Source: an uncultured Oscillospiraceae bacterium (GTDB lineage Bacteria > Bacillota > Clostridia > Oscillospirales > Oscillospiraceae). Taken from it: a DNA stretch of 64,000 nt. A program made the translations under genes and the position numbers. Positions 14,637 through 16,677 of the stretch are shown here, in pieces (position 1 is the stretch's first letter; every line of letters starts with the position of its first letter). Below the pieces are notes generated by a model. It saw only the letters and a program-made list of their open reading frames with translations, had not been told where the DNA came from and did no database searches. Location: contig CANPVS010000009.1 of NCBI GenBank assembly GCA_947581795.1, forward strand, positions 1 to 64,000, read 5' to 3'.

Positions 14637-14668
14637 GTCCGCCTCCTGGCATTCCCGGCTCTGTGCTG

Positions 14669-14695
14669 CTAGCACTCTTTCTATCCGAGTGCTAA
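14669..14695 (-). promoter_or_regulatory. CIRCE operator (HrcA binding site)
   Basis: CTAGCACTC-N9-GAGTGCTAA; one mismatch to TTAGCACTC-N9-GAGTGCTAA, directly upstream of hrcA. Confidence 0.95.
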
Positions 14696-14790
14696 TTTAC
14701 CACGTCTTTCAGTATATGTCAAGGGCCCCTTCCTTATAATTTGTAATTTGTTCATATTCCGGGAGGGTAAAACAAAATGCCGCGCCGGAC

Positions 14791-14918
14791 TTGACATACA
14801 GTCCCTGCGCGGTCTATAATAGGCATACAAAAAGGGCGCTGTGACAAGCGGTTAGCCCCTGCTAGTTAAAGTTCTTTTGGAGAACCGTCACCGGCCAGGG
14901 TGGCGGTTCGTCCTTTTT
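14791..14918 (+). ncRNA. Candidate antisense sRNA (type I antitoxin-like), TSS about 14827
   Basis: TTGACA-N18-TATAAT promoter (14791-14820), no evident ORF, terminator GAACCGTCACCGGCCAGGGTGGCGGTTC + TCCTTTTT (14882-14918); overlaps the 3' end of the convergent peptide gene. Confidence 0.6.
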
Positions 14919-14971
14919 ACGGTCAGCGTTATCGTATATCTTCCGATATGTAACGTCAACGTAATAGGCAT
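14888..14971 (-). CDS. 27-aa candidate type I toxin peptide MPITLTLHIGRYTITLTVKRTNRHPGR
   Basis: Strong SD (GAAAGGGGGTGAGGCGTATG), upstream TTGCGT-N17-TATTCT promoter (15048-15076), 5'-proximal UUCG hairpin (15024-15045), convergent sRNA. Confidence 0.55.
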   Translation of the reverse strand: MPITLTLHIGRYTITLTVKRTNRHPGR

Positions 14972-15105
14972 ACGCCTCACCCCCTTTCGGGGAGTGTGAC
15001 TAACCGCCCGCCGTTGTTCAGCGCCCTGGTGCCGAAGCACCAGGGACAGAATATCACACCATTCGGCAAAACGCAACTCCCCGGGACCGCCGTCCCGGGG
15101 AGCAT

Positions 15106-15605: not shown

Positions 15606-16677
15606 TGTCAAACTAAGTGCAACAGTAAGAGAGTTCAAGATCCCACAGATCAGCGGGAGAACGGAAGTTAAGAACCTTACGAGGCCTGGCGTTGAGAAGC
15701 GCCAGGTTTCGTTTTAGGGTGGCAGGACTAACGCGCGAGAGATTCTTTCCCTTGGGATAGAACTCCCGAAGAAGGCCGTTGGTGTTCTCATTCGTTCCCT
15801 TCTGCCATGCACAATATGGGTCCGCAAAGTAGACGTCACAGTGAAGGCGTTCCTCAATGTTGCTCCAATTGGCGAACTCCGAGCCTCTGTCACAGGTAAT
15901 GGTCTTGACCAGAGAAGAAGGGAACTGAGACAGCATGCCCACCAGCGCGTTCTCCATGGTCTCCGCCCGCCGGTCCGGTATCTTCATGGCGATGTAATAA
16001 CGGGTCTTTCTCTCTGCCAGTGTGGCGAAGCATGCCTTACTTTTGCCCAGACCGCTCACTACCGTGTCCGCTTCCCAGTGTCCTGCCTCGGCACGGCTGT
16101 ATATGCTCTTGTCCCGTTTTCGTATGGACTTGCCCTTGTTGTATTTTCCTCGCGTCTCCACCTTTCCATGGCTCTTTCCCTTCCGCCGCAGCACTTTCAG
16201 GTTCCCGTTCACCAGGTACTTCTCGTATATCCAGCGGTAGATGGTCCTCCAGCTGGGCATGGGCAGTTCACAGGGCGTACATGCGATTTGCTCCGGCGAC
16301 CATGTCGCCAGAAGCTTCTCGTTTATGTAGTCAAGGACCTCCTGCGAGTGGTACATCCCCCGGTGACAGTATGAGCGGCGCAGCAGATACTTCTTTTGGG
16401 CGGTATGAGGGTAGTACGTGGGAACGTCGTACATATGGGTACAGTTCCGCCGCAGTTCCCGGGACACGGTGCTCACATTTCGCCCTATGAGTCGGGCGAT
16501 CTCTCTGTAACTGAGCCCATCCACGTAATATTTTCGTATACAACTGCGCTCTTCTATGCTAAGATGTTGGTAGTTCATACATTTCTCCTCTGTAGCTTGT
16601 TGGTTTGGTCACTTCCATTCTACACGAGATTTGTATGAACTTCTTTATTTTTCCCTCCTGTTGCACTTGATACTATA
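15606..16677 (-). mobile_element. IS30-family insertion sequence
   Basis: Transposase plus inverted ends AAGTGCAACAG (15615-15625) and CTGTTGCACTT (16658-16668); exact ends not resolved. Confidence 0.75.
15613..16578 (-). CDS. IS30-family transposase
   Basis: MNYQHLSIEERSCIRKYYVDGLSYREIARLIGRNVSTVSRELRRN...HWEADTV...ITCDRGSEFANW...YFADPYCAWQKGTNENTNGLLREFYPKG. Confidence 0.95.
   Translation of the reverse strand: MNYQHLSIEERSCIRKYYVDGLSYREIARLIGRNVSTVSRELRRNCTHMYDVPTYYPHTAQKKYLLRRSYCHRGMYHSQEVLDYINEKLLATWSPEQIACTPCELPMPSWRTIYRWIYEKYLVNGNLKVLRRKGKSHGKVETRGKYNKGKSIRKRDKSIYSRAEAGHWEADTVVSGLGKSKACFATLAERKTRYYIAMKIPDRRAETMENALVGMLSQFPSSLVKTITCDRGSEFANWSNIEERLHCDVYFADPYCAWQKGTNENTNGLLREFYPKGKNLSRVSPATLKRNLALLNARPRKVLNFRSPADLWDLELSYCCT

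Follow-up and report, generated by a model that had tools for sequence, protein, structure and literature searches.

Background

Several described type I toxin-antitoxin systems resemble, in part, the locus analyzed here. In Bacillus subtilis, the txpA/RatA, bsrG/SR4 and bsrE/SR5 pairs consist of convergent RNAs that overlap at their 3' ends, with a small toxin ORF and a Shine-Dalgarno sequence (SD) held in a short helix, as laid out in the excerpted text of PMC7430163; the known toxins of the txpA/bsrG/bsrE group are hydrophobic membrane peptides, according to an extract of PMC6563280. The hok/Sok and aapA/IsoA systems are found in Gram-negative bacteria, occur as multicopy loci and have a toxin mRNA closed by 5'-3' long-distance pairing, which is conserved between copies. 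In AapA the long-distance pairing itself covers the SD, and hok is repressed via the mok reading frame (excerpts of PMC6733600 and PMC8167048). The par locus of Enterococcus pAD1 (Fst/RNAII) has a short toxin and a convergent antisense RNA; its two RNAs share a single bidirectional terminator, and each contains direct repeats (excerpt of PMC8167048). In Listeria, rli28 comprises a BsrH-like putative toxin with a RatA-like antisense RNA (PMC9484302; Rfam RF01492). For the Clostridia, the review extracts describe type I systems with local SD hairpins and 3'-overlapping antisense RNAs.

We have analyzed a locus in a 64,000-nt stretch of DNA (the window) from an uncultured Oscillospiraceae bacterium (contig CANPVS010000009.1). 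A first-pass annotation, made from the letters of the window alone, had proposed a candidate type I toxin-antitoxin locus with a 27-aa peptide and a convergent antisense RNA, and the comparative sequence evidence supports that reading. The locus is a real, multicopy and conserved module, and it probably represents a new type I family. Comparison of its copies supports two convergent genes, a conserved peptide, long-distance pairing, SD sequestration and the strand assignment of the terminator. The most likely interpretation of these sequences is a new type I family in the Clostridia with end-to-end mRNA closure like that of hok and AapA, a closure not described for txpA/RatA, bsrG/SR4 and bsrE/SR5 in the excerpt of PMC7430163.

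Elements of the locus

The elements of the locus are summarized in Table 1. The sequence contains all those listed in the first-pass annotation, none of them more than a few bases from where it had placed them; these include the minus-strand promoter, UUCG hairpin, SD, ORF and 3' GGGGCU..AGCGCCC-U5 element, as well as the plus-strand TTGACA-N18-TATAAT promoter.

Table 1. Putative features of the toxin-antitoxin locus, in coordinates of the window
Feature	Position	Strand	Remarks
Toxin promoter TTGCGT-N17-TATTCT	15048..15076	minus	TTGCGT 15076-15071, TATTCT 15053-15048; weak
5'-proximal hairpin with UUCG loop, toxin mRNA start	15024..15045	minus	9-bp inverted repeat
Predicted toxin mRNA, ~215 nt	14825..15041	minus	ends inferred from promoter and terminator positions
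Leader arm, long-distance helix 1	15019..15027	minus	15027-15019 pairs with 14841-14833
Leader arm, long-distance helix 2	14998..15012	minus	15012-14998 pairs with 14857-14843; covariation and strand-specific wobbles
SD hairpin CACUCCC/GGGGGUG	14978..14996	minus	SD at 14976-14987
Toxin ORF, 27 aa MPITLTLHIGRYTITLTVKRTNRHPGR and stop	14888..14971	minus	conserved peptide family
Antitoxin promoter TTGACA-N18-TATAAT	14791..14820	plus	12/12 against consensus
Predicted antisense RNA antitoxin, ~92 nt	14827..14918	plus	ends inferred from promoter and terminator positions
Antitoxin terminator	14882..14918	plus	stem 14882-14909, then T-rich; overlaps last toxin codons
3'UTR arm, long-distance helix 1	14833..14841	minus	inside toxin mRNA terminator
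3'UTR arm, long-distance helix 2	14843..14857	minus	
Toxin mRNA terminator GGGGCU..AGCGCCC-UUUUU	14829..14859	minus	overlaps 3'UTR arms

The toxin promoter matches the consensus at 7 of 12 positions, and its form, TTGCnn-N17-TATyCT, is seen again in many sister copies. The predicted sRNA is fully complementary to the toxin mRNA along its whole length; it would be, as in other type I systems, an antisense RNA with its own promoter and terminator that overlaps the toxin mRNA. The predicted mRNA (15037-14825) folds with -88.5 kcal/mol (z -5.6) and the predicted sRNA has a minimum free energy (MFE) of -40.1 kcal/mol (z -4.1). Of 5200 trials with shuffled DNA, 7 gave a best antitoxin promoter score of 11/12 and none a score of 12/12; together with the z scores of both folds, this control indicates that the elements go beyond chance. 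An 85-aa upstream extension of the ORF was rejected, as it is the ATG of the 27-aa ORF that the strong SD serves and at which both conservation and homologues begin.

The first-pass annotation had also drawn attention to a 12-bp direct repeat at the sRNA promoter and over the peptide start codon. The repeat is indeed exact at 14817-14828 and 14962-14973 and occurs nowhere else in the window, but a role for it is unsupported, because sister copies do not conserve it and its first copy precedes the position where the sRNA is predicted to start and would therefore be absent from the sRNA. In nearly all sisters of the same clade the sRNA-side copy is altered (after TATAAT come GAACATAC, GAGCATAC and others), and in a sister copy of 99% identity the repeat is gone on the start-codon side. 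The repeat is a local coincidence. A par-like DRa/DRb reading was rejected for the same lack of conservation, and the locus differs from Fst/par in having a separate terminator for each RNA as well.

Distribution of the module

We read 52 intact copies, which come from an uncultured genus of Oscillospiraceae, from another genus that is distant from it, from Vescimonas fastidiosa (a cultured species) and from a small number of further Clostridia. The copies have a 20-30-aa peptide ORF with a strong SD and a convergent antisense RNA, and the family is multicopy and often tandem; the first-pass annotation had proposed a search for the peptide family next to the same sRNA in other Firmicutes, and in all of these groups it is found beside an sRNA of the same kind. 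A DNA search of 60 relatives identified two other copies in the window's own genome, one intact (C21) and one with the antitoxin only (C1), and showed that many genomes of the same genus carry dispersed copies, some of them in tandem. A search with a divergent member revealed up to ten copies per genome in the other genus and family. In the human-gut isolate V. fastidiosa MM35, three or more intact copies lie in unannotated intergenic DNA of an 861-kb replicon, at sites such as the gap separating nadE from a LysR gene or the DNA beside jag. Since these genes are unannotated in the record examined, gut Clostridia may hold many unseen modules.

Copies from the home genus may reflect a search bias towards the sRNA, of which copies found by the peptide alone are free. 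A terminator-pattern scan of 392 genomes yielded mostly matches without the layout, and a reversed control pattern also gave scattered matches; the count is therefore not taken as evidence, and only matches with the full layout were used. The phage records searched contained no match to the module, and a match in Acetoanaerobium proved unrelated on inspection.

The antisense promoter and terminator are kept in intact copies. The promoter matches TTGACA/TATAAT at 12 of 12 positions in 42 of the 52 copies and at 10 or more in all 52, a set that includes the copies found by peptide search alone; the terminator hairpin is kept in the 44 aligned copies. No intact peptide copy lacks the antitoxin promoter (0/52). 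Conversely, four orphan antitoxins (L038, L041, L117 and L149:2280-2400) retain intact consensus promoters with little or nothing left of the toxin ORF. Antitoxin-only remnants and the lack of unguarded intact toxin copies fit a toxin that cannot be kept unguarded.

In five further loci (L016, L020, L031, L040 and L048), the terminator hairpin of the antitoxin is broken at almost the same point by inserted or foreign sequences, of which there are at least three kinds. This suggests that the hairpin is an insertion target; several of these copies sit at contig ends.

The peptide family

The peptides fall into clades typified by MPITLTLHIGRYTITLTVKRT.., MRITLHIGPYRVTIIVVRS.. and MRITFHIGxFTVTIIVKRR... 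Values of dN/dS, computed on the codons upstream of the antitoxin terminator, were 0.25 in the window's clade and 0.04, 0.16 and 0.18 in three others, pointing to purifying selection on the peptide. With this range and an SD that is near-invariant among the aligned copies, the short ORF is conserved as a protein sequence, as a type I toxin gene would be. Of the observations named in the first-pass annotation as able to overturn its reading, a lack of amino-acid conservation was the one open to sequence comparison, and the peptide is conserved. Because the final residues (NRHPGR, NRHSAK) are specified by the terminator hairpin of the antitoxin, conservation at the C-terminus says little about the peptide itself.

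AlphaFold, given 37 family members, places strands at residues 3-9 and 12-18 and leaves the tail poorly defined, with a mean pLDDT of ~89 across the first 20 residues; the model is that of the 30-aa member L141 rather than of the shorter window peptide. Polar and apolar residues alternate, and the predicted structure is an amphipathic beta-hairpin. Maximum hydropathy is 0.86, versus ~2.6 in hydrophobic relatives, and the window peptide thus lacks the hydrophobic transmembrane character that is typical, if not defining, of type I toxins. By these predictions it is not a transmembrane helix, and in this it differs from the majority of type I toxins described. No family match was found in Pfam, NCBIfam or PADLOC, and the PDB, searched by sequence and by fold, gave nothing informative for the peptide.

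The locus and its relatives were compared with Rfam. RatA gave no match, and no match to TxpA/RatA or rli28 reached the gathering score, the window locus having none at E<=1. One relative, L113, matches the Listeria rli28 family RF01492 over its full length, although weakly (32.6 bits, under the cut-off of 45, E 0.88).

Hydrophobic peptides are encoded by several relatives of similar layout (L024, L042, L109, L110 and L113). L024 belongs to a different genus within the order. Its leader and SD match those of the window locus over 43 nt at 86% identity; it encodes MKKKLLKSVIFWITILLLVYFLQIDVN from a TTG start, and its leader and 3'UTR are altered jointly to CGGUUCGUCUC and its complement. In L109, L110 and L113, which belong to other families, the leaders are GGCGGUUGUUUCCG, the SD is unchanged and the antitoxin terminator is similar; MEEIISFTLLVMIIVLYIKK is an example of their peptides, and the stop codon falls just before the terminator hairpin. 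In a tandem array of the home genus (L042:1473-2001), beta-type copies are mixed with a copy encoding the hydrophobic peptide MTVEETILLLNLLAVVIFGVITITKK. Judged by sequence, the peptides of these relatives have ordinary type I toxin shapes, and they provide the strongest reason for reading the beta-hairpin peptide as a toxin. Perhaps a third peptide type, MSTSSLIALAQLCLETIRFVCDLIRNKHN.., is present in the same array.

Predicted closure of the toxin mRNA

The pairing between leader and 3'UTR, which the first-pass annotation had overlooked, comprises two helices of ~9 and 15 bp and shows the clearest covariation in the system. Compensatory changes, a preference for cognate partners and G-U wobbles specific to one strand support this pairing, which is reported here for the first time. 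In an alignment of 44 copies, 98.1% of helix 2 is paired, and in five of its pairs both partners vary. The covariation score of helix 2 and the terminator hairpin exceeded those of all 500 shuffles and all slid controls, and slid versions of the tested structure dropped to 16-47% paired. The shuffle control ignores shared ancestry, for which the slid controls and the cross-family cognate test correct in part, and where copies are divergent, their alignment by MAFFT may be biased towards the anchored helix.

Duplexes between leader and 3'UTR are more stable for cognate than for non-cognate partners: -42.9 versus -33.9 kcal/mol, -43.8 versus -25.9 for L024, -44.4 versus -32.9 for the hydrophobic set and -36.8 versus -28.4 for the distant genus. 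The preference is clearest between families whose leaders differ. Wobble pairs also differ by strand. Read as mRNA, the long-distance helix is 98.1% paired, against 82.1% for the opposite strand; for the terminator hairpin, pairing amounts to 98.5% in the sRNA and 86.4% in the mRNA. This asymmetry assigns the helix to the mRNA and the terminator to the sRNA, and the strand assignment it gives is independent.

End-to-end closure is present in the MFE structure of 42 of the 44 copies, so that, as in hok and AapA, the leader pairs with the 3' end of the toxin mRNA with covariation. The SD is held in a short hairpin in almost all copies; unlike in AapA, it is this separate local hairpin that covers the SD at the window locus. 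In the predicted folds the SD stays in the local hairpin in both the full-length and the 3'-trimmed mRNA, so that closure does not hide it and trimming does not free it. Since the SD is sequestered in the model even after 3' truncation, the opening step is unexplained by the fold. A metastable pairing of the leader with the end of the ORF fits some members of the clade, but overall it scored 9.44 against 9.15 for shuffled sequences and is not claimed.

Proposed function of the module

Taken together, the sequences make it highly probable that the module of this new peptide family is a type I toxin-antitoxin system. For transcription, RNA stabilities, processing, repression and toxicity we infer the following course. 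A strong promoter would produce the ~92-nt antisense RNA, and a weaker convergent promoter the ~215-nt mRNA, which encodes an amphipathic beta-hairpin peptide of 27 aa whose tail is basic. As long as this mRNA is full-length, its leader would pair over ~24 bp with the 3'UTR while the SD and start codon lie in local hairpins, leaving the message closed. By analogy with hok and aapA (excerpt of PMC6733600), trimming of the 3' end may open it; the antisense RNA would then pair with the remaining end of the ORF and lead to RNase III decay, as in the Bacillus systems (excerpt of PMC7430163). Because the 5' half of the antisense RNA is similar to the leader, the two could compete for the 3'UTR before closure. 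Loss of the antitoxin would allow accumulated mRNA to be translated, and the peptide would harm the cell.

A broader proposal, for which we consider the chances even, is that these are amphipathic beta-hairpin type I toxins carried by a conserved cassette for RNA control (a lock between leader and 3'UTR, a hairpin over the SD and an antisense RNA), that unrelated toxin ORFs were exchanged in it as the Clostridia evolved, and that the antitoxin terminator dictates the C-terminus of the toxin. If true, a peptide toxin of a different fold would join a class known mostly for membrane helices, and hok-like end-to-end closure would be shown in Clostridia. Multicopy loci with matched leader/3'UTR pairs would make cross-talk and specificity directly testable by swapping.

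Less probable, and rather unlikely, is a functional but non-toxic small protein (regulatory or membrane-associated, for example) whose level is merely set by the antisense RNA. A charged amphipathic beta-hairpin, predicted to be unlike most known type I toxins and without a family match, would suit such a protein. It would not account so readily for tandem multicopy arrays, for remnants that have lost the toxin and kept the antitoxin, for the near-perfect antisense promoter that guards every intact copy, or for same-layout relatives with ordinary hydrophobic toxin-like peptides. A self-spreading repetitive RNA or DNA element (MITE-like or REP-like) with an incidental ORF is very improbable: its dispersed and tandem copies and long inverted repeats have to be set against codons under purifying selection, a near-invariant SD, conserved promoters and strand-specific wobbles that fit two RNAs. 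Least probable of all is an hrcA-linked regulatory RNA pair controlling the adjacent heat-shock operon: hrcA does follow directly after the window copy, and the alignments of a few relatives extend into the hrcA upstream region, but most copies are elsewhere, such as the LysR-nadE and jag sites of V. fastidiosa.

Neighbourhood of the module

An IS30-family transposase gene (window 15613-16578, minus strand) adjoins the putative toxin-antitoxin module. Between 15105 and 15600, an XRE/RstR-like regulator (plus strand) and an ORF of ~50 aa (minus strand) diverge around a ATACATCGTTTGATGTAT palindrome, in a region that also has a TTGACA-N17-TATTAT promoter; this segment is possibly a mobile-element remnant. 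On the other side, a CIRCE-like inverted repeat (14663-14697) with TTAGCACTC-type half-sites is located upstream of hrcA, ~100 bp from the sRNA promoter. A strong symmetric hairpin, CTCCCCGGGAC/GTCCCGGGGAG, lies at 15077-15102, between the toxin promoter and the next gene.
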